64,000 nucleotides of DNA. Source: Carboxylicivirga fragile (GTDB taxonomy: Bacteria > Bacteroidota > Bacteroidia > Bacteroidales > Marinilabiliaceae). Where the stretch lies: contig JAFMVD010000022.1 of the NCBI GenBank assembly GCA_025499625.1, positions 1 to 64,000 of the forward strand. The letters are read 5' to 3'. Positions 5,194 to 25,463 of the stretch are shown in pieces. How positions within the stretch are numbered: the first letter of the stretch is position 1; each line of letters starts with the position of its first letter. The translations under genes and the position numbers were made by a program. The notes under the pieces are model-generated. The model made no database searches. It was not told the origin of the DNA and worked only from the letters and a program-made list of their open reading frames with translations.

Positions 5194-5219
5194 AGATAGA
5201 TTGTTCATTAGTTTGGTAA

Positions 5220-5383: not shown

Positions 5384-5408
5384 TAATTAGCAAAATGCTT
5401 TATCAATC

Positions 5409-5459: not shown

Positions 5460-5495
5460 CATTTACTAAATTCATTTGATTTAAAATTATATTGT

Positions 5496-7985
5496 ATGCC
5501 ACTAACATATAGGTTCATATTAATACTCGTTTTATTTCTTAACAGCATTGGCAATATATCTTCTCAGAATTTAACATCTGAGACGGATACAGCTCAAACA
5601 AAAAAAATAAAAGCTTTCGCCATCGAAGATTTAGGTTCAGCAAGTGAACGAACGCTTTCTTTTTCTAGAAAACTGCAACAGAATCTCGAATCTGAAAAGG
5701 ATTTCGAACATCTGGACTCATTAGTAAACAGAAGACTGGAACAGGTTAAAGAATATCAGGAAAACATTAAAACGATTGATATTGAAGACATGAATTTCAG
5801 ACAAACGGAGAGTTTACGTCTGAAATTGGTCAATACTAAATCCCAAATTGATGGCACAAGAAAGCGACTTGTAGAAAAATCAACTCAACTTGGTGAGAAA
5901 AAAGAAGAGATAAACTTATACCAGCTTCAATGGCAAAAAACATTGGTACGAGTTAAAGAGAATAAACGTCCAGCTGAGGTGATTGATCGAGTTCAGTCAA
6001 ATCTTAAAAACATAAATGACTTAGACAAAAAACTAACCAATCGTAACAACCTGCTCCTAAGAGGTCAAGACAAGTTAACCGGAGCCTTAATCTATCTTGA
6101 TGAAATAATAACCAACATAGATAAGATACAAGATTCGTTTAAATCAAAAATTTACACCATCGACAGCCCACCTCTTTGGGCGCTTTTCTCAACAAATACC
6201 GATTCAACAAATGTAAAAGAACGAATAACTAACATAGCTGATTCCAGAACACAAGATCTCATAAACACAAAACATGTTTACACTGATCTCTTCATTTCAT
6301 TCATTATCATTGTTGTATTATTATTTGGGTTTACTGTCTACATAAAATACCGTTACGATAAAATTGTTGTAAAAAAAGAAAATGCTCCTATCGATAAAAG
6401 GCTTTACTGTATTTTACACCCAATGCCTTCGATTATTTTATTGAGTGTTTTATTTTTGAACCTATTCTTTAATTCTGTCCCAACTGATGTTCGAGATATT
6501 TACAAAGTGCTTTTAATCGTTCCTCTTCTGGGATTAACATCCAATATTTATACCGAAATCCCCAAACGCTTTTTCTACTTATCGGCACTCGTTTTCTTCC
6601 TTTCTATTTTTAGCGATATTTTTACCGAGTTGATAATATTTAGCCGACTGATAATTCTTTCAAACAGCCTTATAACACTATATATTCTAGGCTCTTTACT
6701 AAATCACTTTAAAAGGAATAAAAAAATCAACAAGGATATTAAATTCCCTTTCAATACGTTTTTCTTACGTATCGGAATTATTACCATCAGCCTTTCAATA
6801 ATTATTAATGCCATAGGTAATTCTTACCTCTCATCTATCTTATTCAGAGGCACAGTTAACCTCATCTTTGGTGGTATTCTTTTATTATCAGCTTCAGAAG
6901 TATTAAAAAGCTATTACGTTTTAATCGTTCGCCACAAAACACTTGGTAAATTAAATACCTTTGAGCATTATCCCGATGAAATATTAAAATGGTTATATAA
7001 ACTAACCAACATTTCCATTATTGCCTATTGGTTACATATGAGTTTAAACTCATTTATGATCTACGATTCATTATATGCCTGGCTCGAGGAATTAATGGTG
7101 AAAGAATTAGCCTTAGGGTCAGTTGCCATTAGCCTGGGCAATGTGTTTGCTTTTTTTATTACTCTAACCATTGCACTATATGTGTCCAAATTCATTCGCT
7201 TCATTCTCAACGACGAAATATTCACTCACTTCGAATTACCCCGAGGTGTTCCAGGAGCCGTATCTATGATTGTTCGTTTGATACTAATTGCCTTTGGTTT
7301 CGTTCTGGCCTTTGGAGCTGCCGAAATAGATATCAGTAATATTACCATCATTTTCGGTGCCTTAGGTGTAGGTATTGGTTTTGGCCTGCAAAACATATTC
7401 AACAATCTGGTATCAGGATTAATCCTTGCTTTCGAGCGGCCTGTTCAGGTGGGCGACATTCTACAGATTAGTAACCTGAATCTGATGGGCGAGGTGAAAG
7501 AAATAGGAATTAGAGCTAGTACGGTGCGGACTTTTGATGGTGCTGAAGTCATTGTGCCCAATGGCAATTTAATCTCCAATGAGATGATTAACTGGACACT
7601 ATCTGATCGAAGAAAACGACAGGAACTATTAATTGGGGTAAGCTATGGAACTGACACAACAAAAGTTCTGCAATTACTCGAAGAAGTAGTAGGTGTGCAA
7701 GAAGGTGTATTAAAAAAACCTGCACCTTTCATTATATTCAAAGGTTTTGGTGATAGCTCGCTTGATTTTCGCGTATTATTTTGGACTGCCTTTGATTATG
7801 GCTTAAGTACCAAAAGTCGTGTGGGAGTTGCTATTGATAAAGCTTTCAAAGAAGCTGGCATAACAATCCCATTCCCGCAGCGCGATCTACACTTTATAAA
7901 TGCGGAGAATGAAAAGAGTGAACCAACATCAGACTTAAGCAACTTAGAATCAAAACAAGGCATGGACGCTGATGCCGATGATTAA
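5496..7985 (+). CDS. Large MscS-family mechanosensitive channel with periplasmic coiled coil
   Basis: The 829-residue protein should be an inner-membrane channel that opens under membrane tension and releases solutes on osmotic downshock. A signal peptide is followed by a long helical, Lys/Glu-rich segment (about residues 25-240) with coiled-coil character. Several membrane helices follow, then the MscS core near residues 600-790. The pore helix is seen in GALGVGIGFGLQNIFNN, followed by FERPVQVGD and VPNGNLISNEMINW of the beta domain. This layout resembles the large MscK/MscM-type channels rather than small MscS. I chose the ATG at 5496 because the promoter lies just upstream. The coding region abuts the thioesterase gene, so the two may be co-transcribed. 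Confidence 0.88.
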   Translation: MPLTYRFILILVLFLNSIGNISSQNLTSETDTAQTKKIKAFAIEDLGSASERTLSFSRKLQQNLESEKDFEHLDSLVNRRLEQVKEYQENIKTIDIEDMNFRQTESLRLKLVNTKSQIDGTRKRLVEKSTQLGEKKEEINLYQLQWQKTLVRVKENKRPAEVIDRVQSNLKNINDLDKKLTNRNNLLLRGQDKLTGALIYLDEIITNIDKIQDSFKSKIYTIDSPPLWALFSTNTDSTNVKERITNIADSRTQDLINTKHVYTDLFISFIIIVVLLFGFTVYIKYRYDKIVVKKENAPIDKRLYCILHPMPSIILLSVLFLNLFFNSVPTDVRDIYKVLLIVPLLGLTSNIYTEIPKRFFYLSALVFFLSIFSDIFTELIIFSRLIILSNSLITLYILGSLLNHFKRNKKINKDIKFPFNTFFLRIGIITISLSIIINAIGNSYLSSILFRGTVNLIFGGILLLSASEVLKSYYVLIVRHKTLGKLNTFEHYPDEILKWLYKLTNISIIAYWLHMSLNSFMIYDSLYAWLEELMVKELALGSVAISLGNVFAFFITLTIALYVSKFIRFILNDEIFTHFELPRGVPGAVSMIVRLILIAFGFVLAFGAAEIDISNITIIFGALGVGIGFGLQNIFNNLVSGLILAFERPVQVGDILQISNLNLMGEVKEIGIRASTVRTFDGAEVIVPNGNLISNEMINWTLSDRRKRQELLIGVSYGTDTTKVLQLLEEVVGVQEGVLKKPAPFIIFKGFGDSSLDFRVLFWTAFDYGLSTKSRVGVAIDKAFKEAGITIPFPQRDLHFINAENEKSEPTSDLSNLESKQGMDADADD

Positions 7986-8001
7986 CAAGCAAAACATTGC
8001 C

Positions 8002-8412
8002 ATGATATACGATTACGAATTAGAATTTAAAGTAAGAGATTACGAATGTGACTTGCAGGGAATCGTTAATAACTCTGTTTACCAAAATTACCTCGAACAT
8101 ACGCGTCACGAATTTCTGGATGAGATAGGTCTTAATTTCAAGGAGCTTTATGACAAAGGAATAGTGGCCGTGGTTGCTCGCGCAGATTTAGCATACAAAA
8201 CACCTCTTCGCAGTAACGATCAGTTTGTTGTACGCACAAGAGTAGAGCACAAAGGCCTTAGATACATTTTCCATCAAGATATCTATCGCCTACCAGATGA
8301 AAAATTGTGCTTAAAAGCTGTCATTACAACTACGAGTATTATTAACGACAAACTGGCCGAATCGCAGGACATAAAAGCTGCTTTTGAGGACGTAATTAGT
8401 AAGAGAGTGTAA
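8002..8412 (+). CDS. 4-hydroxybenzoyl-CoA-thioesterase-family acyl-CoA thioesterase (YbgC/FadM type)
   Basis: This 136-residue single hotdog-fold protein probably hydrolyses short or medium acyl-CoA esters. The signature VRDYECDLQGIVNNSVY near residues 8-24 matches the 4HBT pattern, in which the Asp of D-x-x-G-I/H-V is catalytic; here it reads CDLQGIVNN. The start at 8002 gives the usual MIYDYELEFKVR beginning. An ATG at 7972 would overlap the channel gene by 14 bp and add ten atypical residues. Genes of this type are often near membrane or Tol-Pal genes, but here the neighbour is a mechanosensitive channel, so the substrate is unknown. Confidence 0.85.
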   Translation: MIYDYELEFKVRDYECDLQGIVNNSVYQNYLEHTRHEFLDEIGLNFKELYDKGIVAVVARADLAYKTPLRSNDQFVVRTRVEHKGLRYIFHQDIYRLPDEKLCLKAVITTTSIINDKLAESQDIKAAFEDVISKRV

Positions 8413-8555
8413 GTGTCAATATTTGCAAATAATTATTATTTAAGGCCTTATGCTTTTCAATTTAATAGATATGTGAGATAATTGTGAGGTTTATTTTTTT
8501 GTATTCTTCTCAATTAAAGGTAACATTACAGGCACATTTCCTGTAACATATATAC

Positions 8556-11500
8556 ATGAATAAATCCAAAAGCTTAAGAAGTATACTATTACTATGTTAT
8601 TTTTTAACATTACTTATACCCCAACTGACCATCGGTCAAATAAAAATAAATGAATTTGTCTCATCCAATGTTACTGGCTTAACAGATGAAGATGGTGATT
8701 ATCCGGATTGGATTGAATTATACAATAGCTCTGAACAAACTGTAGACCTTAGTAATTATTTTTTATCGGACGATTTATCCGACACGTTAAAGTGGCCTTT
8801 ACCATCAACAACTCTCGCATCAAAAAAGCACATGCTTATTTTTGCTTCGGGTAAAAATCGTTTCAATATTGTTAATGAATGGAATACCATCATTGATAAA
8901 GGTGATGAATTAAAATATATAATTCCTGATCAAGAGCCAGAAACAACTTGGAAAACTGCAGATTATGACGACAGTCAATGGTTAAATGGTGCTTCGGGCA
9001 TTGGCTATGGAGATGATGATGATGAAACAATTATTGAATCGTGCATAAGCTTTTTCGTTAGAAAACAATTTACCATTACTGATTTTGATAATATTGCTCA
9101 GGCTGTCTTACACCTTGATTATGATGATGGTTTTGTGGCCTACCTCAATGGCGTAGAAATAGCTCGAGATAATCTTGGAACTGCAGGCAGTTTTGTTTCA
9201 TTTGATCAAACGGCTGACAATTGGGAGCATGAGGCACAAATGTACCAAGGCCTTCCTCCCAATCAGTTTGAGGTACACAATTGGGAAAGCATACTAACGG
9301 AAGGTATTAATGTATTAGCCATTCAGATTCATAATTACTCCAATACTTCGTCCGATCTAAGCTGCATTCCATTCTTTAGCCTGGGTTTAAAAAATAGTGA
9401 AGGACATGAGGCCTCAGAGCACATCAATTTACCAACATCATACCTGCATACCAACTTTAAAATAAAAGCTGGAGGAGAATCATTATACCTATTCAAAAAC
9501 AAAGTATTTATTGATTCTATACAAGGAAAAAAGTTATTAGCTGACATATCTCTCGGACGTCAAACAGACGGAGATGAACAATGGAGTTATTTCGACACAC
9601 CTACTCCGGGAGCTGCTAACATAGGAAACTCATCAAACGAACTGACAACAGATTCAGTACAGTTTTCAATACCTGGAGGAAATCATCAGGGGCAGTTAAG
9701 CCTAGTCTTATCGAACCCAAATAAAGGTGACAGTAAAATCTATTACAGTACCGATGGTTCAATACCTGATAAAACAAGTTACCTATTCAGTGATGAAATA
9801 AAGATTAACACCGACACAGTTATTCGTGCAAGAATTATGGATGATGGGGTATTAGCAGGTCCGGTATTAACACAAACATATATTCTAAACAAACAACATA
9901 CACTTCCTATTATCAGTCTTTCAACTGATCCCAATAATTTATGGGATTATCAAACAGGCATTTATGTGAAAGGACCAAATGCAAGTCCGGACAATCCATT
10001 TTGGGGAGCAAATTTTTGGCAAGATTGGGAGAAACCTGCTCATTTCGAGTACTACGATAAAGATGGCACTAAACAAATTGATCAGGGTGCAGGGGTTAAA
10101 ATTTATGGCGCTTGGTCGAGAGCTCATCCTTTAAAATCAATGGCACTCTTCGCCCGTAAAGAATACGGAGATGGTTCATTTAATTATAAGTTCTTTCAAA
10201 ACAGAGATAACGACAAGTTTGAAGCACTTGTTATTCGTAATTCGGGTAACGATTTTTACAGCACTCACCTCAGAGATGGGTTAGTGGCCTCAATTATGGA
10301 GCCCCTTGATATAGAAAATCAAGGTTTCCAACCTACAGCCATTTATCTCAATGGGGAATATTGGGGAATTTTAAATTTGCGTGAAAAAATAAATGAGCAC
10401 TTTATTTCCGATCACACATCTATACGTAACGACAGTGTAAACATTCTTGAATTAGGTGGTGAAATTGTGAATGGTAATGATAAGGCCTATCAAGAACTTT
10501 TAGATTTTATCAGTAAAAATAGTTTAACGATAGAGGAAAACTACGAAAAAGTGGCTGAGTACATCGATGTTGATAATTACATCGATTATTTACTAGCTCA
10601 AACATTTATTGATAATAGAGATTGGCCAGGCAATAATATCAAATTCTGGAACACGACTAGTTCTAAAAGCCGATACAGATGGATCATGTACGATACGGAT
10701 TTTGGCTTCGGTTTATACGATACAAATAATTACCAATACAACTCATTGGCTGATGCACTTGCTAGCAATGGTCCAAATTGGCCAAATCCACCCTGGTCGA
10801 CCAAACTATTCAGAGCCCTAAAAGCCAATAATAAATTTAAGGCCAAGATGGCGCAGCGGGCGAATGATTATCTGGAGCACTACTGGAAACCATCAATGAT
10901 GAATGAAAAAATTGATTCGCTCAAAAACATCTATTCCGAGGAAATGAAAGCGCACTGTGACAGGTGGGATTTGGATTACACACATTGGAGTAACGAAGTG
11001 GCACGCCTAAAGACATTTTCTAATTATCGTCCTCGGCATTTTGAACAGCATGTAAAAGATATACTTGGATTCGACGATGAACACTATTTAAGTGTAGATG
11101 TTTCATCAAGCGAAGGTGGCCATATAATTATCAATGATATAACAATTAATGACTACCCTCATTCTGCTTCCTTCTATAGCAATCATTTAACAAGAATACA
11201 TGCAGTGCCTAGGCCTGGATATCGTTTTGTCAAATGGGAAGGTGATTTATCATATAGCAAAGCCGAATGGGATTTTTACCTGAATACACAACGATCGCAA
11301 ACAGCCGTATTTGAAGCCGCATCCGAAGATGATGTTTCCATTGTTATTAATGAAGTATTCTACAAGTCGTCTGAAACCATTAAACCAGGAGACTGGATAG
11401 AATTATGCAATGAAGGTAAGACATCGGTAAATCTAAAAGATTGGGTATTTAGCGATACACAAGAGGATTCAGCATTTGTTATTCCCCATGACATATTATT

Positions 11501-14721: not shown

Positions 14722-14763
14722 GGAACGATTCTTTAATTACAGTTTAAAATAAAGAACCGTTCC
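14722..14763. terminator. Bidirectional terminator-like inverted repeat between convergent operons
   Basis: GGAACGATTCTTTA and TAAAGAACCGTTCC form a 14-bp stem with one mismatch. It lies between the plus-strand VTC operon and the minus-strand ORP-like operon. A related arm (GGAACGGTTCT/AGAACCGTTCC) recurs at 51616-51658, so it is also a repeat-family member. Confidence 0.65.
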
Positions 14764-14770
14764 GTAAATA

Positions 14771-15598
14771 TTACTTTGCTAAAGCAAGACAATCAATTAC
14801 TTTAATTGACAGCTCTTCAAAAGCCTGATGTGTTTTTTTATTTGTAGAATGATAAACACTCAAACCTTTATCACTCATCTCTTCAATATCCATTACCAAT
14901 GGAATTTGTCCGAGAAGAGGCACTCCAAATTCTTTGGCTAACTCTTGTCCTCCCCCTTCTCCAAAGATGAAATACTTTTCATCTGGATGTTTAGCAGGTG
15001 TAAACCACGACATGTTTTCGATAATGCCAAGTATGGGTATCTGAATGCTTGAATGATCAAACATGGCCAGTGCTTTACGGCCATCAGCTACAGCCAATTG
15101 CTGAGGTGTGATTACCACTAAAGCCTGAGCTTGCTTAATATCCTGTGATAGCGTAATACAAATATCACCTGTCCCTGGTGGCATATCAATTACAAGTGTA
15201 TCTAATTCGCCCCAAAGAGTATCGCTAATAATCTTCTTTAAGGTATTTGATGCCATTGGTCCGCGCCAAATCATTGCATCTTCTTTATTGGTCAACAAGC
15301 CAATGGACATAATCTTAACCCCATATTTTTCTATAGGTTTAATGTAATTCTTACCATTTTCTTGAATAATTTCCGGCTTTTGATCAGCAATACCAAACTG
15401 AATAGGGCTTGATGGCCCATATATATCGGCATCCAAAAGACCTGTTCTTAAACCTTCGCGCGACAAACTTACTGCAAGATTAGCCGCAATAGTTGATTTT
15501 CCCACTCCTCCTTTACCAGATGCCACCAGAATAATATTCTTGACATTAGGTAAAAACTTTTCTTCTTTTATTGGAGTAACCATTTTAAAATCTGACAT
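14771..15598 (-). CDS. Mrp/NBP35-type P-loop ATPase (MRP-ORP-like Fe-S/metal carrier)
   Basis: The 275-residue protein carries the deviant Walker A ASGKGGVGKST near residues 26-36, a switch motif LLDADIYGPS and the DMPPGTGD motif of Mrp proteins. Mrp ATPases bind and transfer Fe-S clusters. The usual C-terminal CxxC is not obvious here. In Desulfovibrio a close relative (MRP-ORP) is encoded with the orange protein and two ferredoxin-containing MinD ATPases, exactly the neighbours seen here. I chose the ATG at 15598 over a GTG at 15604. The gene overlaps the preceding one by 14 bp, implying coupling. It is the last gene of the operon. Confidence 0.88.
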   Translation of the reverse strand: MSDFKMVTPIKEEKFLPNVKNIILVASGKGGVGKSTIAANLAVSLSREGLRTGLLDADIYGPSSPIQFGIADQKPEIIQENGKNYIKPIEKYGVKIMSIGLLTNKEDAMIWRGPMASNTLKKIISDTLWGELDTLVIDMPPGTGDICITLSQDIKQAQALVVITPQQLAVADGRKALAMFDHSSIQIPILGIIENMSWFTPAKHPDEKYFIFGEGGGQELAKEFGVPLLGQIPLVMDIEEMSDKGLSVYHSTNKKTHQAFEELSIKVIDCLALAK

Positions 15599-16502
15599 AC
15601 TCACTTTCTTGTTTATTTAGTTTGAATACTTTATCTGTATTTATCAGAGCTTTCCATATCGATCGAATTATTTCAGCTTCACTTGATTTCGGGGCATATT
15701 CAATGATGTTCTTCTGTTCAATCATTGCATGCCTGAAAAGCATGCTAAATGGCACTTCGCCAAGTACTGGAATGGCTAATTTCTCTAATTCATCTTTGAT
15801 TACTAATTCCAATTCCTGATGAATGCCAGCTTTATTGATAATGGCCGATACAGACACTTTAAAATTCTTTATCAAATTGATTAAACGACTGGCATCGTGC
15901 CACCCACTTTGACTTGGCTCGATAACTAAAAGCACTTGTTTTGCACCTGTTATCGAAGCAATCACAGGGCATCCTATTCCGGGTGGTCCGTCACTGATGA
16001 TATATTGAGCTGAAGTTTCAATGGCTTTTTCCTTTGCTTTCTTGCGGATAAAAGAAACTAATTTGCCTGAATTTTCTTCTCCAACACCCATCTGCGCATG
16101 AATAAAAGGACCAAATCGAGTTTCGGATTCAAACCATGTATTACCACTATTTTTGGTACTTACTATTGCTTGCTGAGGGCAAATACGCTCACAAAGACGA
16201 CACCCTTCACACGCAAAAGGATCAATCGCAAGCCGACCATCTTTATTTTCGATAATCGCATTAAAACGACATTGTGTTACACATTGGCCACACTGGATGC
16301 AATTAGTTGATTCAATAGTACATTTCCATCCACTAATAAAAGCATCTTGTTGCTTTACTTCAGGCTGCATAATTAAAAACAAATCGGCAGCATCTACATC
16401 GCTATCGCAAATCACGACAGATTCAGCCAACGAGGAAAATGCAGCTGTAATAGTGGTTTTACCCGTTCCTCCTTTCCCGCTTAATATGGTTATCTCATGC
16501 AT
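15585..16502 (-). CDS. Ferredoxin-containing MinD-superfamily ATPase (ORP-cluster type, second copy)
   Basis: The 305-residue protein is a MinD/ParA-type ATPase with Walker A LSGKGGTGKTT near residues 7-17 and two 4Fe-4S motifs inserted at about residues 65-115 (CIQCGQCVTQC and CEGCRLCERIC). The signature DGPPGIGCPV follows the insert. This architecture is found in anaerobes, always in pairs, with NifX-like and Mrp proteins. Desulfovibrio DVU2103/DVU2104 are the best-known examples and belong to the orange-protein complex. It overlaps its two neighbours by 8 and 14 bp, so production is probably coupled. A role in ATP-dependent cluster assembly or transfer is inferred. Confidence 0.88.
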   Translation of the reverse strand: MHEITILSGKGGTGKTTITAAFSSLAESVVICDSDVDAADLFLIMQPEVKQQDAFISGWKCTIESTNCIQCGQCVTQCRFNAIIENKDGRLAIDPFACEGCRLCERICPQQAIVSTKNSGNTWFESETRFGPFIHAQMGVGEENSGKLVSFIRKKAKEKAIETSAQYIISDGPPGIGCPVIASITGAKQVLLVIEPSQSGWHDASRLINLIKNFKVSVSAIINKAGIHQELELVIKDELEKLAIPVLGEVPFSMLFRHAMIEQKNIIEYAPKSSEAEIIRSIWKALINTDKVFKLNKQESEYVRF

Positions 16503-17373
16503 ATATCTGCACTTTACTATTAATCTGTGTTAGTATTTGTTCATATACTTTTTGTATATCTTCAGAAATATTCTGTAGTATTTTTCCTTGCGCATACAGG
16601 TAGGCATAATTCGTTGAGAAAGGAATTTTACCAATTACCTCAATATTACTTTTCAGAAGGTATTCCTCCATCTCAGGAAACTGATCATCTGCTTTGTTTA
16701 TTACTACACCAAAAGGTTGTTTTATCTCGTGAAGCAACTCTATCATAAGTTTTAGATCATGTAAGCCAAAAGGACTTGGCTCTGTAACCAAAATTGTATA
16801 GTCTGTTTGACTAAGCGTGGCAACAACCGGGCAACTGGTTCCTGGAGGAGCATCCAATAACTGAATATCAGCTTTTAACAACGAACTGTTCACAAGGTCT
16901 TTTATAACCATTGTTTGCATAGGTGAACCAATTACCAGGCGCCCCTCCAACAATGGAGGTTGACAACTGTTGTTAAATGGCTGAATTTCACCAATTAAAT
17001 GTGCTTTTTCCTCAATGGCATTTTCAGGACAAATATATGCGCAAGCACCGCATGAATGACACAATGCTGGGTTTACATCAGCATAATGTTTAGAAGCAAT
17101 AATGACGATGGCATTAAACTCGCAATATTCAACACATTTCCTACAATAAGTACACTTAACGTGATCAATTGTAGGGATTAGCTGATTAACATCAATTACT
17201 TCTTGTACTTGATAGTTTGGAAAGAATATAGCATCGTTTGGCTCCTCAACATCACAATCTACCAATTGCACTGATTGAGTAATGTTTTCTTTTATAAAAT
17301 GAAACAAATTAACCGAAACAGTGGTCTTGCCTGTTCCTCCTTTACCACTTGCAATTGCTATTTTTATTGACAT
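16495..17373 (-). CDS. Ferredoxin-containing MinD-superfamily ATPase (ORP-cluster type, first copy)
   Basis: The 292-residue paralogue of the next gene has Walker A ASGKGGTGKTT near residues 7-17, two 4Fe-4S motifs (CTYCRKCVEYC and CHSCGACAYIC, about residues 63-108) and DAPPGTSCPV. The two copies have the same domain order but differ along their length, so they probably form a heterodimer; that is an inference from paired occurrence in other genomes. I chose the ATG at 17373 over a TTG one codon upstream. It overlaps the following gene by 8 bp and lies 97 bp after the DUF4405 gene. Confidence 0.88.
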   Translation of the reverse strand: MSIKIAIASGKGGTGKTTVSVNLFHFIKENITQSVQLVDCDVEEPNDAIFFPNYQVQEVIDVNQLIPTIDHVKCTYCRKCVEYCEFNAIVIIASKHYADVNPALCHSCGACAYICPENAIEEKAHLIGEIQPFNNSCQPPLLEGRLVIGSPMQTMVIKDLVNSSLLKADIQLLDAPPGTSCPVVATLSQTDYTILVTEPSPFGLHDLKLMIELLHEIKQPFGVVINKADDQFPEMEEYLLKSNIEVIGKIPFSTNYAYLYAQGKILQNISEDIQKVYEQILTQINSKVQIYA

Positions 17374-17470
17374 CAAACTAAATTAATTGCCTGAGCATTA
17401 TGATTAATGAAATTAACAATACTTCAACAATGACATTTTAACAAGCGTTAAGCATAATCGCATTAAAGTA

Positions 17471-18196
17471 TTAATTGTGATACGCTTCAATCACCTTATC
17501 AACATCCGACATATGAAAACCATATTGCTTTCGTAACCGGCCCAATTTTGCTGCATGGTCAATTCCATCCGGAAGCTCAAGCTCTTTTTTGAAGAAACTC
17601 AGTGGTACATTATAGGTTTCAGCTACTTCTTGTAAAGTCATTCTACCATTAATCTCATGAGATTGATAGCGATGATCGGAATCTTTGTGCGAAGCATGTT
17701 TGGTAACTTGAGAAGTATTTACGTTTACGACATCACTTACAACTATGGTTTCGTTAGTTGCTTCATGTGTTTTTACAGCGGTTTCACTATTGACCTTTAA
17801 ATGCTGACTATGTTTAAATTCACTTCCAAGTGTAGGGCTTACAAAAAAGGGGAATGAAATGAAAAGTGCTGATAGAGTTATAAATAGAGCCGTATAAACA
17901 ATTTTAATCGATGATGATTTTATCAATCGCTTTGTAACATTCGTGACAAAGGACCAATGTAATGCGATATGAAACACTAATAAAGCTATCAACACCATAC
18001 TTATAATGAAATGTATCTGCCCCCATTGATGACGATCCATATTAAGCCAAAGCATGTTATGGTTTGAACCGAACTCAGCCCATTTGCTTCGGCCAGGTGG
18101 AAGTGTGTACTTGATTAATATGCCTATCCCGGTAATGGCACATAGGCACAAAAGCAGGAGGGCATCAATAAAGTAATTGATGGTTGATTTCTTCAT
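17471..18196 (-). CDS. DUF4405 membrane protein with a C-terminal helical module
   Basis: The 241-residue protein has three likely membrane helices (about 9-30, 53-80 and 95-117). Conserved histidines in HQWGQIHF and VFHIALHW could bind haem, as in cytochrome-b-like families; this is inference. A polar, His/Ser/Thr-rich linker (about 120-175) is followed by a compact helical module (MTLQEVAETYNVPLSFF...KLGRLRKQYGF). That module occurs at the end of several redox membrane proteins in anaerobes. Its position in the ORP-like operon suggests a link between the membrane redox pool and the soluble ATPases. A hairpin lies upstream at 18216-18248. Confidence 0.75.
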   Translation of the reverse strand: MKKSTINYFIDALLLLCLCAITGIGILIKYTLPPGRSKWAEFGSNHNMLWLNMDRHQWGQIHFIISMVLIALLVFHIALHWSFVTNVTKRLIKSSSIKIVYTALFITLSALFISFPFFVSPTLGSEFKHSQHLKVNSETAVKTHEATNETIVVSDVVNVNTSQVTKHASHKDSDHRYQSHEINGRMTLQEVAETYNVPLSFFKKELELPDGIDHAAKLGRLRKQYGFHMSDVDKVIEAYHN

Positions 18197-18215
18197 GATC
18201 TGAATGTTTTAATTT

Positions 18216-18248
18216 AAAAGCAGGCAATGAAAATCATCACCTGCTTTT
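18216..18248 (-). terminator. Hairpin inside the ORP-like operon (partial terminator/attenuator)
   Basis: AAAAGCAGG (18216-18224) and CCTGCTTTT (18240-18248) form a 9-bp stem with a 15-nt loop. Read on the minus strand it ends in TTTT. It could lower expression of DUF4405, the two MinD ATPases and Mrp relative to the small proteins upstream. Confidence 0.5.
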
Positions 18249-18282
18249 CACTCATCTTTGGTGTTTTAAATCTGCGAAACCA

Positions 18283-18471
18283 TTACAAGTCTCCAGATCT
18301 AAATCTAAAACGAGAGCCAGCATTGTTGCCAACTCCTCTTCGTCCTCGTCCCATGCCTCTTTCCATTCCAGGTTGATCAGCATTTTTTTTGTCGTTTGAA
18401 CGACATTTTCCCTTACTTCGTCCGGTATCAGGACCTTGCCCTGATGGACCGGTTCCATCAAATCGTGGCAT
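18283..18471 (-). CDS. DUF5320-type small Gly/Arg-rich protein
   Basis: The 62-residue protein begins MPRFDGTGPSGQGPDTGR, the typical start of DUF5320 proteins (MPRxDxTGPxGxGPxTGR). It continues with Met/Gly/Arg-rich low complexity (GMERGMGRGRRG). These proteins are nearly always coded beside NifX-like and DUF134 genes in anaerobes; their function is unknown. An alternative frame over the same DNA (18252-18461) has no such match and is not real. The gene starts 9 bp after the NifX-like gene ends. Confidence 0.8.
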   Translation of the reverse strand: MPRFDGTGPSGQGPDTGRSKGKCRSNDKKNADQPGMERGMGRGRRGVGNNAGSRFRFRSGDL

Positions 18472-18480
18472 AATTTTTAA

Positions 18481-18798
18481 TTATTTAGAAATCTTGGCAA
18501 TGATCGACTCAATGGTACTGTCACTTTCATCAAGCATCACCATTTGAATTTCAAATTTATTTAATAGTTGTTTTGCTTTTGGTCCAAAATCGCCGGAGAT
18601 AACACGCTTAACTCCTAATTCAATCATTTTCTCTGCCGATTTGGTTCCCGCACCTCCTTGGACATTTACAATATCATTAGAAACAAACTTGCTTGTTTTA
18701 TCTTGGGTATTGTAGACACAAAAATAAGCGGCACGTCCGAAACGAAGATCGAATTTGTCCGTTAACTTATCTCCTGCTGATGTAATTACTATTTCCAT
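18481..18798 (-). CDS. NifX/NifB-type dinitrogenase-cofactor-domain protein (orange-protein-like)
   Basis: The 105-residue single-domain protein has the RNase-H-like fold of the Nif FeMo-cofactor family. Marks are FDLRFGRAAYFCVYN near residues 16-30, GGAGTKSAEKMIELGVKRV near 48-66 and SGDFGPKA. Orange protein (ORP) of Desulfovibrio belongs to this family and holds a Mo-Cu-S cluster; other members carry FeMo-co precursors. No nif genes are present, so an ORP-like role is more likely than nitrogen fixation. I chose the ATG at 18798 over a TTG at 18837, because MEIVITSAGDKL is the usual start and the longer form would overlap the upstream gene. Confidence 0.85.
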   Translation of the reverse strand: MEIVITSAGDKLTDKFDLRFGRAAYFCVYNTQDKTSKFVSNDIVNVQGGAGTKSAEKMIELGVKRVISGDFGPKAKQLLNKFEIQMVMLDESDSTIESIIAKISK

Positions 18799-18814
18799 TT
18801 TAATTTTCTTGAAT

Positions 18815-19216
18815 TTATTTTTCCTGTATTCGTTCAATCACTTCTGATTGACAGATAGGGCATGCATTTTCGGTACTATTAGGGAGGTTAAAACGTGCAT
18901 GACATTTATTACACACGAACCAATCATTATCGAGGTGAGCATTTCCATAGACAGCTTTTATTTCGCTTGTTTCAACCAATGCTTTTGCAATTTTGCGTCG
19001 AGCACTTTCATATATACGAGCAAAAGTAGCACGTGACACACCCATTAATTTACTGGCTTCAGCATGATTCATTAAATCATAATCAGCCAGCTTTATAGCT
19101 TCGTACTCTTCGTAATTAAGATCAATTGCAGTTTTATTCTCAACATGGCCGTAAGGTTTAAAACCTTTAAAGCCGGGAGGAGCTACAATTCTTCTTAAAC
19201 GTCTTCTTCTTGGCAT
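18815..19216 (-). CDS. DUF134 (UPF0251) DNA-binding regulator with a rubredoxin-like zinc ribbon
   Basis: The 133-residue protein begins MPRRRRLRRI, then has the DUF134 helix-turn-helix (about 30-85), including YEAIKLADYDLMNHAEASKLMGVSRATFARI, which resembles sigma-70 region 4. The C-terminus (about 100-133) carries CNKC...CPIC, a four-cysteine zinc or iron ribbon. The family is uncharacterised but always near NifX-like and ferredoxin-MinD genes. As the first gene of the operon, directly under two identical palindromes, it is probably the autoregulator. The Cys ribbon could sense iron or oxidation; that is inference. The leader is only about 13 nt long. Confidence 0.85.
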   Translation of the reverse strand: MPRRRRLRRIVAPPGFKGFKPYGHVENKTAIDLNYEEYEAIKLADYDLMNHAEASKLMGVSRATFARIYESARRKIAKALVETSEIKAVYGNAHLDNDWFVCNKCHARFNLPNSTENACPICQSEVIERIQEK

Positions 19217-19234: not shown

Positions 19235-19290
19235 CAAATATAGTGAGAATATTCTCATTAATCGCAACTTAAATGAGAATATTCTCATTT
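19235..19290 (-). promoter_or_regulatory. Promoter with twin palindromic operators for the ORP-like operon
   Basis: Two copies of TGAGAATATTCTCA lie at 19244-19257 and 19274-19287, centres exactly 30 bp apart; the distal one extends to a perfect 20-bp palindrome (19271-19290). On the minus strand the -7 box TATATTTG (19235-19242) directly follows the proximal copy, and a TTG at 19265-19267 between the copies sits at about -33. A protein bound here would block the promoter. The DUF134 protein coded just downstream is the obvious candidate; a Fur- or Rrf2-like factor from elsewhere is possible. Confidence 0.75.
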
Positions 19291-19556
19291 AATAATACTA
19301 GGTAATAACATAACTGACTGAATAAGTGCGCAAACATCACTTCTTAATACTTCCATTAAGCACATTAACAATCAAAGAGAAGGGAATGTGAATTCTATTA
19401 AAGAAATCAATCTTACATACTAGCATGAAAACAAAAAGCCTTCATTGAAAGCTTAATCATACTTTTTTTCAAAAAATCTATTTTATTTTTATGGAATAAT
19501 TACAAACGTTGCATCTTACCTGTAAACGATTTTGTAATAAGCCTAAACCGGACTCA
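19291..19556. other. Intergenic region upstream of the giant A2M-like gene
   Basis: Together with the operator region this is a 340-bp gap between divergent genes. It is AT-rich. A weak AAGC...GCTT hairpin followed by a T-run lies at about 19436-19476. No clear -7 box for the plus-strand gene is visible; TATTTTTATGG near 19484-19494 is only a partial match. Confidence 0.4.
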
Positions 19557-22500
19557 ATGAATTTAATATCTCGACTAGTATATCTTACGATCATTCTTTT
19601 TGCATTTCAAGCCAATTCACAAGCTCAAGAACTAATTAACAGTCGCCGAACAAGCCATCACAGATACATTTACTCCATTAATCAGGAGCAAGCTAAAGAA
19701 ATTCACACTAAAGGACTTGAAAGCGTTAACCAATCTTACTTTCATAATCTTGTTGATAGTATTACTCTTGATTCTGCCTTTGTTAAGAAACTACCTCAAG
19801 GCGATTATCTATCTGTTTGGGCCGATGATAGCAACCTACATTATCAGTTCAGATCGTATAGCGACATCGATCTCATCCTACATAATAACTATGCCGATTT
19901 ATCTTTTAGTCTTCGTAATAAAGAAGGCGAACTTATTACGAATGCGGATGTTCGTTTTCAAAATCGACGAATCTCATTTGATAAAAAGACACAATGTTAC
20001 TTTCTACCTAAAAAACAAATTAAAGGATTGATTGAAGTCGAACATCAGGGCTTTACTTCTTTTTTCTACATCGACAATATAGCTGGGAAAGTAAGTCTTA
20101 CAAGAAAAATACTTTACTCCTTTCCACTTAAATACATTACCGTACCAGTTAAGTTGATTTTATTGTTGCCATATGATATATATCGTAGTATTCGATACCA
20201 TGGTATATACGGACTTCCCTACTATATCTCGAAACCATTTAAAGACATTTACCATTCAATAGATAATGGATATCCCCAAGGTTTTGTGGATAAGTTGGCT
20301 AATCGATTCGACAGAGAACGCAAGTGGGATTACGGCTATACCGTTTATAGCAAACCAAAATATCGCCCAAGTGACAGTGTGAAAGTGAAAACCTATATCG
20401 CGAACAAAAAAGGGAAACCATATAATAAGCCATTAAACGTATACTATCACGACAAAACCTATAAACTCCTTGGCCAAGCCATTCATTCTAACAAAGGTAA
20501 TTACCATTATTCTTTTGCGATACATGATTCGCTTAATTTAAAATTAGATACTCGTGTACAAATCTATTTTGGGCCAAATCCATGGACGCACCTTTCCAGC
20601 TCATCATTCTACTATGAGGATTATGAATTAAAAGGCATTAAATACAGTTTTCGATGTGAAGGAAATGATCATTTCCCCGGGGATACCATACAACTATTTG
20701 CAAAAGGCGAAGACATGAACGGCTATGTTATTCCTGATGGGAAAGTACAGATTATTGTAAAGCCAGGCAATCAACAGAGCCAATATCAAAAACGATTAAC
20801 GCATCTACCAGACACGGCATGGAATAAAACCATTTCGCTTGAAGGTAAAGGCGAAACCACCATTAATATTCCTGATACAATATTCAAGGCAATTAACTCT
20901 AATTATAACATTGAAGCCATTTTTACTAATGCCTCAAATGAAAGAACAGTGAAACGAGCTAGTTTCAACTATTGGTACAAAAAGGAAGAACTTCGCACTC
21001 AGAAACTAAGCGATTCAATAAAAATAGAATACCTCAACCTGAATCAATCTCAAAGTCGAAGCGCCTATATCGAACAGAAAGACATTAATAACAATGTACT
21101 TAAGGCACATTGGGTTGAATTGCCATACCAACAAAAAATACATGCTCGAATTAGTCACTACACCATTACTTCGCAGGATTTGCAACAGGATTTCTACTTG
21201 AAAGATCACCTGCCTAACTTGGGTTTTAACATCAACAGAAATCACGAAACAATTGAAATCACTTCGATTAACCCTGATCAGATTCCATTTAAATATCACC
21301 TTTACAAAAAGAGTCGTAAACTGGCAAGACAACAATCGACTAATCTAGATACCACAATAACGGCAAAGAATAAGGCGAACTATTTTTTATCGGTTCAATA
21401 CGAATGGGCAGGAGAATCACACTCCCTAAACTATACTATTCCCCTCCTCACGAAACAACTAAACCTTGAAGTGGAGCAAGTCAATCGTATTTACCCTGGC
21501 CAAAGTGTTGAATTTAAAATTAAAGCAACTGACTACAAAGGACAAGCTGTTAGCAATGTTGACCTAACAGCGATGGGACTTACCAAGAAATTTAAATACA
21601 CGCCTCCATCAGTTCCTAACTTCGAAAAGAAAAAGAAGGAAAGAGCAATGCGAAACGACTATGTCAATAATGGCAATGCTTTATTTGGTGAATTAGGAAG
21701 CGACTCCTTGGATTACGACATTTGGAACAGCATTATGCAACTCGACACCATTGAGTTCTTTAAGTTTAGTCATCCTAAAAACGGACTATATCAAACGCAA
21801 TGGAAAGCAAATAACGAACAAACACAACTAGCTCCATTCGTTTTCAAAAAAGGCGTATTACAACAAGCCCACATCATTTGGATAGACAATAGCATTGTTT
21901 ATGCTTCTATTAGTAACAATAATCCACCATATAGCTTTAAATGTCAGGAAGGCTACCACAGCATCAGTATCAGAACAAAGGAATACGACATTGTACTTGA
22001 CTCGATACTTGTTAAGGCAAACAAAAAGAACATTGTTTCAATTGACATTGAACACAATGTAAAAGCCAAGATCAAATACATGAAAAATGAGTTTTCATCC
22101 AACGAAAAACGCTTGTTACGAACGGCCTTTGTGCGTTTTAATCCCAAAGGTAGGCACCTGAGTTACACGCGCCAGTTCGACCAATACAACATTCTTAACT
22201 CAAACGGCAACTATGGCTACAGGGGATACATTACAGCCGGCCCATTTCATCAGTTGGGTAATCTAAACTACACCAGCGATCGTACCTGGACTTTCTCTTA
22301 CGAACCTTATTATATGTACAGCATCAATGGTGATGCCCTTAAGATGAAAACGGATGAAGCCATTGTCAACATAACGAATAAATTATTGATCAATGATGCA
22401 AGCCTACCCCAACTCACAGATGAAACATGGACGCAACAAAAAATAAATGAATTAATAACACAAAGAAAAAATAAGTCAATCGCACAGAGTGTTTATTTCA

Positions 22501-25463
22501 GCAACCCATGGTCGACAAGCAAGGGGAATACAAGTCTAAGATTGGATTATAAACAACAGAAAAGAGAAGACATTTTACTCTATACTTTGCTTTTCAACGA
22601 TGCATCAGAATCAGTACGTATTTACAATAATAATCAATCCATTTTCCATGACTTAGAACAAGGCAACTACCGTCTTATGATGGTGTATAGCAACCACCAC
22701 TGTTATGAAGTAAAGAATATTGAACTAAAAAAAGGTGGCCGCCATTTTCTACAGGTAAGGGAACCTAAATTCTTATCGACCAACATCGATTTGAAATACC
22801 TTACTCAGCTCATCTCGCAAAAAAGAATTATTGCTAAAAAAGGTCATAACACCGAACACAAAATCAAAAAAAGCATAATTAATAACCTAAGTCAAAATAC
22901 ACGGTTTGAGCAAGAAATAAGTGGCTACATATATGATGATGCAGACGGCCTGCCAATACCCGGTGCAAACGTTTTTCTAAAAGGAACAAGTCATGGCACT
23001 ATAAGCAATATAGATGGCTATTACAAACTCAAGGTACCAGCAGGTACTCCTGAAATATGTTTCAGTTTTATTGGATATAAGTCTATCAATATGAATGTCG
23101 GCATGGGCAATCACAGCGACATTAGACTTAATGCTGATGAATGCAACGTAGATGAAGTGGTGGTTGTTGGCTATGGCACCTCGAAGAAGTACTCGCTTAC
23201 AGGCAGTGTAACTACAGTTCAAAGTGCGTTACAAGGACAAGTAGCGGGTATCAGTATAGTCAATTCAATGGGAGCACCTGGAGCTTCTCATCAAGTAAGA
23301 ATTCGCGGATTATCAAGTATTGAAGCAGATAAACAACCATTATACATTATTGATGGCGTTCCCTACCAAGGTGATTTGAAAGATATAGATGCTAACAGCA
23401 TTGCTGAGGTTCAAATTCTAAAAGAAACATCGGCGGCCGCCTTGTACGGAGCCAGAGCAGCCAATGGTGCTGTTATACTTACTTTAAAAGACAATACCGT
23501 TATCCCATTTAAGCGCGTAACCATTGAAAAAAGCATACCTCTTCTGTTGCCAACAAATAATAAAGGTTTACGAACAAACTTTAAAGACGAGGCTTATTGG
23601 CAACCGGCTTTATTAAGCGATAAAAATGGAGAAGCAAGTTTTAAGGTTACTTTCCCCGATGATATTACTTCTTGGGATACACACTTATTAGCAATGTCGC
23701 CAAATGGCTTAAGTGCCAAATGGTCTGGTAATATTAAAGCTTTCTTACCTCTATCAGCGAATCTCGTTGTACCACGTTTTGCTGTCGAGGGAGATAGCAT
23801 AAACATTATTGGCAAAACCATTAACTATCTGGGTGATTCTATAAAAACTAAACATCGTTTTTACCAAGAAGATAGCTTGATGTCAGAAACAAAAAGATGG
23901 ACGAAACAATTGGCTATCGATACGATGTCAGTATCAATCCCTAAGGTAGATACGCTCAGCCTGAAATATGAATTAAGCACGGAAACATTTAAGGACGGTG
24001 AAAATCGCGACATCCCAATTATTCCTATTGGATCAATCGATAATATTGGTGAGTTTACAGTATTACAATCCGATACTAGCATCACTTGGAATGTTAACAA
24101 TGGCCTTGATGCCGAACTTTACATCGAATCAAACCCTTTAAATATTCTGTATCGTGAAACTAAGCGGCTACGTCATTATGCTTATTTATGTAACGAGCAG
24201 AAGGCATCAAAACTAATTGGTTTATTAGCTGAAAAACAAATATGTGATGCTCTGGATAAGAAGTTCAAGTATGAGAAGGATATTAAATCTCTTATAAAGA
24301 AACTTAACAAAAGTAAGAATTCTGAAGACCTTTGGGGATGGTGGTCAGGCAATACAACTTCTTACTGGGTGAGCCACCATGTTATTAAAGCCTTGTCACT
24401 GGCTAAAGTTCAGGGCTATGATATTACAATGGACGAACAAACATTAGCTCGACATTTAGTTAGTCGATTGCAATCGACCTATTCATTACACAATAAAGTG
24501 GAATTACTAAACACTCTTATTCAGGTAGATTCAATAAGCAATTACACTTCGCACACAGATGACTTAGTTCAAAAATGCCACACATTTAATGATTCAATAC
24601 TGGTTTATTCCTTACGTCAGAAAATGGGTTATAAGGATGATATCACAGCTCTGGTTAATAAACACAAAACTACTTTGTACGGAAGTGTTTATTGGGGTAA
24701 TAAAGGCTACTGGCTTTTTTCGAACGACTTGATGCAGACCCTACAAATGTACCAACTTATAAAGCAGAGTGGCAGATACAGAGACATGCTTCCGAAGATT
24801 AGAAACTGGTTCTTTGAGCAAAGGGATAATTCGGGTTGGATTAATACGTATCAAGCTTCAAATATTATTAGAGGCTTACTACCAGAATTAATTAGTTTGA
24901 AAGATAAAAGTGAAAATAATAGCATCACCGTTTCTTGGGATGGAGGAAGTGAGAACATACAGGAGTTGCCATTTCAAAAGTCCATTGCAAATAGTGATTA
25001 TATTACCATTACTAAAAAAGGAAAACAAACAGTCTTTGCAGGCTATCATCAAAAAGTATTTAATCCCAAGCCTGAGCCTAAAACCGATTACTTTGTTCTT
25101 AACACCGCTTGGCAGCATAACAGTGAAAGTGTAAAACAATTAGAAGCAGGCAAGAAGTATCAACTAGAGGTAAGTATTGAGGTTAAAAACAAAAGCGATT
25201 ACTTAATGCTAGAAATTCCGATCCCTGCAGGCTGTTCATATGCTAACAAAAAAAGCCATGCTCATAATGAAGCTCATCGGGAGTATTACAAGGAAAAGGT
25301 AAATATCTATTTCCGATCGTTGGAGCCAGGTACTTATATTAAAACCATTGAATTAGTGCCTCGCTTTAATGGTAAGTTTAATATTAATCCGGCTAAAATA
25401 GAGCAAATGTATTTCCCTGTATTTTATGGAAGAAATGGAATGAAACAAGTAGTGGTTGAGTGA
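19557..25463 (+). CDS. Giant alpha-2-macroglobulin-like protein with embedded CarboxypepD_reg and TonB-plug domains
   Basis: From the ATG at 19557 the protein has 1968 residues, beginning with a signal peptide (cut near NSQAQ). The first 1100 residues are many beta domains of macroglobulin (MG) type. At about 1117-1190 comes a CarboxypepD_reg-like domain (GYIYDDADGLPIPGANVFLKG). At about 1200-1315 comes a complete TonB-receptor plug (VVVVGYGTSKK...ADKQPLYIIDGVPY...LYGARAANGAVILTL). No 22-strand barrel follows. Instead the A2M core continues (YWQPAL, about 1345). Cys1545-Asn-Glu-Gln matches the CxEQ thioester motif, and an alpha-toroid-like region follows (about 1560-1800). A2M proteins trap proteases covalently. 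Insertion of a SusC-style module into an A2M chain suggests interaction with envelope partners; that is inference. Confidence 0.85.
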   Translation: MNLISRLVYLTIILFAFQANSQAQELINSRRTSHHRYIYSINQEQAKEIHTKGLESVNQSYFHNLVDSITLDSAFVKKLPQGDYLSVWADDSNLHYQFRSYSDIDLILHNNYADLSFSLRNKEGELITNADVRFQNRRISFDKKTQCYFLPKKQIKGLIEVEHQGFTSFFYIDNIAGKVSLTRKILYSFPLKYITVPVKLILLLPYDIYRSIRYHGIYGLPYYISKPFKDIYHSIDNGYPQGFVDKLANRFDRERKWDYGYTVYSKPKYRPSDSVKVKTYIANKKGKPYNKPLNVYYHDKTYKLLGQAIHSNKGNYHYSFAIHDSLNLKLDTRVQIYFGPNPWTHLSSSSFYYEDYELKGIKYSFRCEGNDHFPGDTIQLFAKGEDMNGYVIPDGKVQIIVKPGNQQSQYQKRLTHLPDTAWNKTISLEGKGETTINIPDTIFKAINSNYNIEAIFTNASNERTVKRASFNYWYKKEELRTQKLSDSIKIEYLNLNQSQSRSAYIEQKDINNNVLKAHWVELPYQQKIHARISHYTITSQDLQQDFYLKDHLPNLGFNINRNHETIEITSINPDQIPFKYHLYKKSRKLARQQSTNLDTTITAKNKANYFLSVQYEWAGESHSLNYTIPLLTKQLNLEVEQVNRIYPGQSVEFKIKATDYKGQAVSNVDLTAMGLTKKFKYTPPSVPNFEKKKKERAMRNDYVNNGNALFGELGSDSLDYDIWNSIMQLDTIEFFKFSHPKNGLYQTQWKANNEQTQLAPFVFKKGVLQQAHIIWIDNSIVYASISNNNPPYSFKCQEGYHSISIRTKEYDIVLDSILVKANKKNIVSIDIEHNVKAKIKYMKNEFSSNEKRLLRTAFVRFNPKGRHLSYTRQFDQYNILNSNGNYGYRGYITAGPFHQLGNLNYTSDRTWTFSYEPYYMYSINGDALKMKTDEAIVNITNKLLINDASLPQLTDETWTQQKINELITQRKNKSIAQSVYFSNPWSTSKGNTSLRLDYKQQKREDILLYTLLFNDASESVRIYNNNQSIFHDLEQGNYRLMMVYSNHHCYEVKNIELKKGGRHFLQVREPKFLSTNIDLKYLTQLISQKRIIAKKGHNTEHKIKKSIINNLSQNTRFEQEISGYIYDDADGLPIPGANVFLKGTSHGTISNIDGYYKLKVPAGTPEICFSFIGYKSINMNVGMGNHSDIRLNADECNVDEVVVVGYGTSKKYSLTGSVTTVQSALQGQVAGISIVNSMGAPGASHQVRIRGLSSIEADKQPLYIIDGVPYQGDLKDIDANSIAEVQILKETSAAALYGARAANGAVILTLKDNTVIPFKRVTIEKSIPLLLPTNNKGLRTNFKDEAYWQPALLSDKNGEASFKVTFPDDITSWDTHLLAMSPNGLSAKWSGNIKAFLPLSANLVVPRFAVEGDSINIIGKTINYLGDSIKTKHRFYQEDSLMSETKRWTKQLAIDTMSVSIPKVDTLSLKYELSTETFKDGENRDIPIIPIGSIDNIGEFTVLQSDTSITWNVNNGLDAELYIESNPLNILYRETKRLRHYAYLCNEQKASKLIGLLAEKQICDALDKKFKYEKDIKSLIKKLNKSKNSEDLWGWWSGNTTSYWVSHHVIKALSLAKVQGYDITMDEQTLARHLVSRLQSTYSLHNKVELLNTLIQVDSISNYTSHTDDLVQKCHTFNDSILVYSLRQKMGYKDDITALVNKHKTTLYGSVYWGNKGYWLFSNDLMQTLQMYQLIKQSGRYRDMLPKIRNWFFEQRDNSGWINTYQASNIIRGLLPELISLKDKSENNSITVSWDGGSENIQELPFQKSIANSDYITITKKGKQTVFAGYHQKVFNPKPEPKTDYFVLNTAWQHNSESVKQLEAGKKYQLEVSIEVKNKSDYLMLEIPIPAGCSYANKKSHAHNEAHREYYKEKVNIYFRSLEPGTYIKTIELVPRFNGKFNINPAKIEQMYFPVFYGRNGMKQVVVE

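Follow-up and report, generated by a model that had tools for sequence, protein, structure and literature searches.

An orange-protein-like operon of Carboxylicivirga fragile with candidate operators for the DUF134 protein encoded by its first gene

Introduction

The closest described counterpart of the operon examined here is the orange-protein (ORP) complex of Desulfovibrio, for which two reports list Orp3 and Orp4 (with two ferredoxin motifs each), Orp5, Orp8 and Orp9/MrpORP (PMC6345978, PMC3897727). They describe the orp genes as two divergent sigma-54 operons, with DVU2106 and IHF (PMC6345978, PMC3897727), and a septum-related role has been proposed for the complex (PMC6345978, PMC3897727, PMC4672049). 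The present operon occupies positions 14771-19216, on the minus strand, of a stretch of 64,000 nucleotides (nt) of Carboxylicivirga fragile DNA, referred to as the window (positions 1-64000 of contig C55, in a genome of 5.6 Mb and 140 contigs). Its seven genes encode a DUF134 protein, a NifX-like protein (NifX-1), a DUF5320 protein, a DUF4405 protein, two ferredoxin-MinD ATPases (MinDA and MinDB) and Mrp. This gene list and its coordinates had been proposed in a first-pass annotation of the window and were borne out here, with each Pfam assignment above the curated cut-off.

Proteins of the same NifX-fold family as NifX-1 include MTH1175, TM1290, TM1816 and PH0822 (PDB 1eo1, 1rdu, 1o13/1t3v and 2yx6), which were deposited as hypothetical or conserved proteins. 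Outside nitrogenase, ORP/NifX-like proteins are not known to have an established function or signal. For DUF134 (PF02001), also named UPF0251 and COG1342, no study of function or operator was found by title and abstract under any of these names, in a search that lay outside subscription journals and regulon databases.

The locus is quite probably an ORP-like metal-sulfide or iron-sulfur (Fe-S) operon that is directly autoregulated by its first gene, DUF134, to judge from its sequence and that of its relatives. The best reading of the family is that DUF134 proteins would act as autoregulatory repressors of NifX/ORP-like operons, probably sensing the state of a metal-sulfide cluster. The evidence consists of gene content, the conservation and position of the candidate operators, the agreement between recognition helix and operator, and gene fusions. 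A candidate operator together with its regulator would be a direct handle on the function and signal of ORP/NifX-like proteins, and in genomes with a matching DUF134 the operator may flag regulon members without prior annotation. The DUF134 promoter could also be used as a reporter for the inducing metal or sulfur signal, and an uncharacterised family gains a predicted, testable DNA-binding function.

Palindromes and promoter geometry

Upstream of the DUF134 gene (18815..19216, minus strand) lie two perfect copies of the palindrome TGAGAATATTCTCA: a gene-proximal candidate operator at 19244..19257 and, 30 bp from it, a distal one at 19274..19287, which is the core of a 24-bp palindrome. These are the only two exact copies of TGAGAATATTCTCA in the 5.6-Mb genome, and the palindrome recurs upstream of most relatives, at a corresponding position in dozens of species. 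The two palindromes had not been reported in the first-pass annotation. A shuffle test within the window was weak, with at least two sites in 9 of 100 shuffles when two mismatches were allowed, and the case was therefore built on whole genomes and on relatives.

Bacteroidota promoters have a -7 element of consensus TAnnTTTG and a -33 element. In the window, the -7 box TATATTTG (TAnnTTTG; 19235..19242, minus strand) is located 1 nt from the proximal candidate operator, and a TTG at 19265..19267 (minus strand), 22 nt from the -7 box, is a possible -33 element on sequence grounds. The candidate operator is conserved in DUF134's own promoter and overlaps the core promoter. Across 137 promoters, the -7 box stood exactly 1 nt beyond the gene-proximal operator in 88, and TAnnTTTG was found anywhere downstream of the operator in 103, whereas 200 mononucleotide shuffles averaged 3.8 such promoters and never exceeded 10. 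The box was present at none of 20 palindrome sites outside the DUF134 system, and at four sites of the system without a DUF134 promoter of their own (L168, L170, L175 and L176; at L173 it was seen by eye on the other strand). A scan for sigma-70 consensus promoters gave fewer matches than shuffled sequence and was uninformative.

In many promoters the operator takes up the stretch from the -33 to the -7 element, a placement that favours repression by occlusion. An operator in this position would also fit a MerR-like activator acting from the promoter spacer, and the 22-nt spacer of the window is somewhat long relative to the consensus. Activation nevertheless seems unlikely: occlusion is the simpler way to read a spacer operator that lies in register, and the palindrome found in Roseburia, TTATTGACATATGTCAATAA, overlaps a TTGACA -35-like box (by eye).

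Operator class and residue 66 of DUF134

Two sets of DUF134 genes were compared. The first was obtained by scanning named genomes with a DUF134 alignment and consists of 80 loci, the best 80 of 580 confirmed stretches; the peptide patterns used to find them included one that permitted only Thr or Ala at residue 66. The second was a sample of the order, in which 82 of 149 genomes had DUF134 at an E-value of 0.001. Nearly all of its above-cut-off matches were fetched; below-cut-off matches, three sequences containing internal stop codons and another at the edge of a contig were left out, and the weak match L221 gave no row. After removal of identical proteins, 183 rows were retained (95 from the order, 82 named and 6 others). 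Since the named loci were chosen by pattern, fractions free of this bias come from the Pfam-selected order sample (95 proteins). A class match was defined as at most one mismatch over the two 5-nt arms of the palindrome, and two rows were dropped because the nearby site was that of a divergent partner.

Most DUF134 genes at the 80 named loci were preceded by a palindrome of the window type, starting approximately 33 to 107 nt before the ATG. The form of the palindrome varied with residue 66, which is Ala in the recognition helix of the window protein (SRATFARIY): TGAGAATATTCTCA for Ala66, TGAACATATGTTCA for Thr66 or Ser66, and TGAGCATATGCTTA for Gly66. For the order and named rows together, a class-matching palindrome was present before 155 of 175 DUF134 genes (Ala66 85/90, Thr/Ser66 65/79, Gly66 5/6), and the order sample alone gave 13/18, 58/71 and 5/6, respectively. 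Markov-shuffled upstream regions contained class arms in a mean of 1.5 of 181 cases. Arms of the Ala or Gly class preceded none of the Thr/Ser66 genes.

Where an operator could be called, no other single column separated the two main operator types as well as residue 66, which assigned 132 of 133 correctly with a mutual information of 0.88. Callable operators agreed with residue 66 in 85 of 86 Ala66, 47 of 47 Thr/Ser66 and 5 of 5 Gly66 proteins. The Fisher p-value of 2e-35 for this association overstates the case, because most Ala66 proteins belong to one clade of 83. L149 and L073, both of them Ala66 proteins from outside this clade, keep an Ala-type operator (with one mismatch in L073); their columns 88, 89 and 90 are not clade-like, and they share some other residues with the clade. 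Back-to-back DUF134 pairs were found in six loci, and in four of these a Thr66 gene with GAACATATGTTC and an Ala66 gene with TGAGAATATTCTCA share one intergenic region; in the remaining two, the partner has the helix SRSGVARIY and a degenerate site. Residue 66 is thus predicted to set which palindrome DUF134 reads. It would fall near R588 of sigma-70. In literature text outside subscription journals, the TGAACATATGTTCA string was not found and GAGAATATTCTC occurred in one paper, on chondrocytes.

The DUF134 protein and its proposed mode of action

The window protein scored 75.8 bits with the DUF134 profile (Pfam PF02001; cut-off 27) and combines a helix-turn-helix with a C-terminal Cys4 ribbon. 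The first-pass annotation had put a DUF134 protein with a Cys ribbon in the regulator's place, and both parts of that statement hold: C102, C105, C119 and C122 were invariant in 58 aligned DUF134 sequences, and the protein looks like a regulator, now with a candidate operator. A C..C..C..C pattern was present in 172 of the 183 rows. Residues 33-76 of the window protein resemble sigma-70 region 4 (16.7 bits, below the Pfam cut-off), and the same similarity was above the cut-off in relatives, including the DUF134 of Roseburia. The helix-turn-helix is similar to that of sigma-70 region 4, but DUF134 differs in being a small regulator whose candidate operators are palindromic. DUF134 was fused to a NifX domain in 7 of 183 proteins, which come from three phyla and include those of Roseburia, Treponema and Phocaeicola; Pfam confirmed the domain in the three of the seven that were scanned.

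For DNA binding, repression, signal and cluster chemistry we infer the following scheme. DUF134, probably as a dimer, would bind the 14-bp palindromes through its sigma-70-region-4-like helix-turn-helix, and the bound protein should block RNA polymerase because the proximal operator fills the gap from -33 to -7. DUF134 probably takes as its signal how far a metal-sulfide cluster is loaded, which might be sensed via the NifX-like partner, the Cys4 ribbon or both; the NifX-like partner is suggested as a sensor by the occasional DUF134-NifX fusions. Derepression would then yield NifX-1 as a cluster scaffold or store, the two ferredoxin-MinD ATPases for ATP-driven cluster or electron handling, and Mrp as an Fe-S carrier.

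Operator sites in the genome, the order and other phyla

The same genome has a second DUF134-NifX cassette (G000:C52:65768-66783; L009:3769-4784), in which a gene for a small Cys-rich protein separates the two and which carries a TGAACATATGTTCA palindrome. The only other exact copy of TGAACATATGTTCA in this genome (G000:C47:67171-67184; L043:1501-1514) lies upstream, its end 48 bp from the start codon, of an OsmC-family gene, which is possibly a second regulon member of the DUF134 on contig C52. The pattern TGANNATATNNTCA had 18 sites in the genome, and the only perfect palindromes among them were the two copies of TGAGAATATTCTCA and the two of TGAACATATGTTCA.

In the 149 genomes of the order, TGAGAATATTCTCA had 18 exact sites (2 for the reversed-pattern control), 11 of which were at nine DUF134 genes, with one before a metallo-beta-lactamase-fold gene of a kind seen in some of the operons and six inside reading frames. 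Exact copies of TGAACATATGTTCA numbered 21 (control 1), of which 19 were examined: 10 at DUF134 genes, one before a NifX-like gene (by eye) that is followed by DUF134, five before DUF5320-like genes (three by phmmer, two by eye), one before the OsmC gene and two at unrelated positions, so that 17 of the 21 were at DUF134, NifX-like, DUF5320-like or OsmC genes. TGAGCATATGCTTA had five sites (control 0), four at Gly66 DUF134 genes and one in a reading frame. The DUF5320-like genes at L168, L173, L175, L176 and L180 follow TGAACATATGTTCA with no adjoining DUF134, some of them accompanied by a small Cys-rich protein or a MinD-ferredoxin ATPase. Exact sites away from DUF134, NifX-like, DUF5320-like and OsmC genes look like chance occurrences.

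DUF134 was also found on 167 plasmid records from Clostridia, a spirochaete and enterobacteria, 111 of them from Klebsiella or Citrobacter, and six of the 167 were fetched. A perfect CATATG palindrome of at least 12 bp was present in two of five non-Bacteroidota loci, the others being judged by eye. A Citrobacter plasmid carried TGGCATATGCCA, and Treponema, an E. coli plasmid and Acetoanaerobium had imperfect repeats only, by eye. Enterobacterial DUF134 proteins have Ala66 but Asn67 and are preceded by none of the three Bacteroidota operators, so that support for the one-residue rule does not extend to them. A wider generalisation can be offered tentatively: in Bacteroidota, Clostridia, spirochaetes and on enterobacterial plasmids, DUF134 proteins may form a widespread family of one-component repressors with CATATG- or AATATT-centred target palindromes and a one-residue specificity switch. 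A NifX/ORP-fold protein, fused to them or encoded alongside, would sense a metal-sulfide cluster, and the genes so controlled would make up a cluster-sensing regulon. The E. coli plasmid p1585m1_C (L227) carries, at 5001-10131, the genes DUF134-NifX-thioesterase-Dps, followed by ArsR and disulfide-reductase/rhodanese genes.

Counter-evidence and a possible unrelated regulator

Several observations weigh against autorepression by DUF134 with a specificity set by residue 66. TAnnTTTG was lacking downstream of the operator in 34 of the 137 promoters, and the sites of the OsmC gene, of a metallo-hydrolase gene (L164) and of L180 had no -7 box in the usual register. The unlikely spacer-bound activator discussed above is compatible with the same data. 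Class arms were lacking before 5 of 90 Ala66 and 14 of 79 Thr/Ser66 genes, Thr-class arms were also present within 200 nt of seven Ala66 genes, and the Ala66 protein L066 has an ambiguous site, TGAACATATGCTCA, nearer to the Thr type. In 395 genomes of the phylum, TGAGAATATTCTCA occurred at 13 sites outside the own genome (control 2), of which one was at a DUF134-NifX pair, nine were inside reading frames, one was just before an esterase-like gene and two had no gene call; owing to this scatter, the operator is informative only in genomes with a matching DUF134. A NifX fusion is seen in only a minority of DUF134 proteins. Independent helix-operator switches amounted to one pair on well supported branches and three on the whole tree, with none in the wrong direction. 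So few switches mean that a sign test cannot reach significance, and residue-66 covariation was rejected as a phylogenetically corrected test.

The small number of independent switches would also suit an unrelated regulator, for instance of the ArsR/SmtB or Fur type, that binds the palindrome while DUF134 has an RNA-binding, protein-binding or other role. An ArsR gene lies near DUF134 on the E. coli plasmid, TGAACATATGTTCA looks like operators of the ArsR family, and the TGAGAAT arms are similar to a Fur half-site. However, the operator class tracks residue 66 of DUF134, each gene has its own class in four of the six divergent DUF134 pairs, and the helix-turn-helix of DUF134 resembles sigma-70 region 4. 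DUF134 was moreover present in 15 of 17 genomes with a TGAACATATGTTCA site, compared with 82 of 149 overall (Fisher p 0.004). An unrelated regulator is accordingly very improbable in our judgement, and direct autoregulation by DUF134 is preferred.

Relation to orange-protein and nitrogenase proteins

NifX-1 (18481..18798, minus strand; ATG at 18798) scored 51.6 with the Nitro_FeMo-Co profile (Pfam PF02579; cut-off 26.3). Its family profile matched three PDB entries, 1rdu, 1eo1 and 2wfb (D. gigas ORP; E 7e-11), and NifX-1 and D. gigas ORP had 35% identity over 78 aligned positions, with the motifs D-x-RFGRAA and GPKA in common. MTH1175 (34% over 89) and TM1290 (31% over 77) were about equally near. 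The MrpORP model was matched by 27 of 28 aligned members of the NifX-1 family, the nifX model by 2 (best E 0.0013) and the nifB model by 1; the match that was compared with its equivalog cut-off did not come close to it. Nitrogenase NifX and NifB have the Nitro_FeMo-Co domain in common with this family, but their profiles are mostly not matched by it, and NifX-1 itself matched neither TIGR02663 nor TIGR01290. A profile search of the whole genome gave no nifH above its cut-off. The nitrogenase reading was rejected on these profile matches and the lack of nifH above cut-off, and the protein is ORP-like, as first annotated, a point decided by profiles and not by a tree with nitrogenase NifX.

The window operon has in common with the ORP complex of Desulfovibrio vulgaris and D. 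gigas an ORP-type NifX-like protein, two ferredoxin-MinD ATPases, an Mrp domain and the clustering of these genes. It differs in that the Mrp and NifX domains are unfused, and in the addition of DUF134, DUF5320 and DUF4405. Mrp of the window covers positions 3-248 only of the 365 of the MrpORP model, and the NifX resembling the C-terminal part of MrpORP is a separate gene on contig C52. The NifX of C52 and a second NifX type found at related loci (NifX-2) matched the C-terminal domain of MrpORP in 16 of 16 cases (best E 1.5e-37), and the NifX-2 family is near PDB 1o13/1t3v/2yx6. In contrast to the two divergent sigma-54 operons of Desulfovibrio, the window has one operon with a palindrome in its promoter. 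The 293 nt upstream contained no sigma-54 -24/-12 match on the strand of the operon, and sigma-54 control was rejected for this reason; no sigma-54 activator was seen among the flanking genes, the rest of the genome not having been searched for one. The small [2Fe-2S] protein Orp5, for which no profile search was made, has no evident counterpart among the seven genes.

Of the resemblance to the ORP complex first noted from gene order, the single-domain (Orp8-like) ORP-type protein and the two MinD ATPases, with two [4Fe-4S] ferredoxin motifs each, stand, and the two-domain MrpORP, sigma-54 control and divergent operons do not. The locus is for this reason described as ORP-like, a reading that is supported, rather than as an ORP complex by membership; the first-pass interpretation as a whole is partly supported. 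A full complex in the Desulfovibrio sense, with a Mo-Cu cluster, MrpORP and a septum-related role, appears doubtful: the motifs common to NifX-1 and D. gigas ORP, the two ATPases with Mrp, and the NifX on C52 would be expected of it, but MrpORP is split, the sigma-54 element and an evident Orp5 are lacking in the regions described, and MTH1175 is as near to NifX-1 as ORP is.

Conservation of the operon and variable partner genes

Gene content was counted at those named loci, 65 of the 80, that extend 5 kb or more downstream from DUF134. NifX-1 was present in 63 loci and MinDA and MinDB in 57 each, both ATPases being absent in six. These counts show that the gene order is no accident and define a core of DUF134, NifX-1 and the two ATPases, and they agree with the neighbour conservation expected in the first-pass annotation. 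Mrp (11/65) and DUF4405 (9/65) are occasional members. The DUF4405 membrane link suggested earlier is therefore not a general feature, and DUF4405 was rejected as a core membrane anchor on the same count. DUF5320, which is short and weak-scoring, was detected in 33 loci and NifX-2 in 36.

Other partners were an ARMT1-like phosphatase (25/65), a thioesterase-like protein (20/65) and a pyridine-nucleotide-disulfide-reductase/rhodanese protein (15/65); the phosphatase, reductase and NifX-2 were named by Pfam on one representative each, and the thioesterase by eye. The recurrence of reductase-rhodanese, thioesterase-like and OsmC genes is a hint of sulfane sulfur. These genes might thus serve mainly sulfane-sulfur or CoA-persulfide handling and not a defined cofactor complex, the CoA-persulfide role being one ascribed to related proteins. 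Reductase/rhodanese and 4HBT genes near DUF134-NifX on the E. coli plasmid and the TGAACATATGTTCA operator of the own-genome OsmC gene point in the same direction. Such partners are, however, variable and do not occur in the window operon, and we consider this function rather unlikely as the main one, with an ORP-like metal-sulfide or Fe-S role being preferred.

The named loci are mostly from Bacteroidales, with others from Maribacter, Lutibacter, Cytophagales, Chlorobiota, Melioribacteraceae and Ignavibacteria. Within the best 80 of 580 stretches, the closest named DUF134 relatives were in two Carboxylicivirga records (75% and 73% identity) and in Marinilabiliaceae bacterium A049 (75%). Maribacter (L094, L095, L099 and L105) carries the operon, and Lutibacter (L101) its first genes, DUF134-NifX. 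Both are Flavobacteriia usually considered aerobic, which conflicts with the label 'anaerobe-specific' given to the orange protein complex.

Operon structure and neighbouring genes

The remaining operon genes are all on the minus strand. DUF5320 (18283..18471) encodes a small Gly/Arg-rich protein (Pfam PF17253, 43.6 versus a cut-off of 27), and DUF4405 (17471..18196) an accessory membrane protein (PF14358, 53.0 versus 26.7) with similarity to cytochrome b561 below cut-off only. The Orp3/Orp4-like ATPases MinDA (16495..17373; CbiA and Fer4) and MinDB (15585..16502; CbiA/ParA and Fer4) each have two Fer4 stretches by Pfam; the Cys and P-loop residues were invariant in the MinDA alignment and the ferredoxin Cys in that of MinDB. 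Mrp (14771..15604; PF10609, ParA/Mrp 288.7 bits versus 27.1) is an Mrp/NBP35-type Fe-S carrier ATPase without a fused NifX domain. Intergenic gaps measure 16, 9, 86 and 97 nt, and MinDA/MinDB and MinDB/Mrp overlap; such short gaps and overlapping last junctions are expected of a single transcript.

The genes flanking the operon encode an alpha-2-macroglobulin/TonB-plug protein, a DUF4956 protein and VTC. An imperfect inverted repeat, noted by eye at 14724-14766, separates the mrp end from the DUF4956 gene, which is convergent with it; the repeat was not listed by a terminator scan, and is perhaps a shared terminator. On the other side, a large divergent gene at 19509-25463 encodes alpha-2-macroglobulin domains together with a TonB-receptor plug and a carboxypeptidase-regulatory-like domain.

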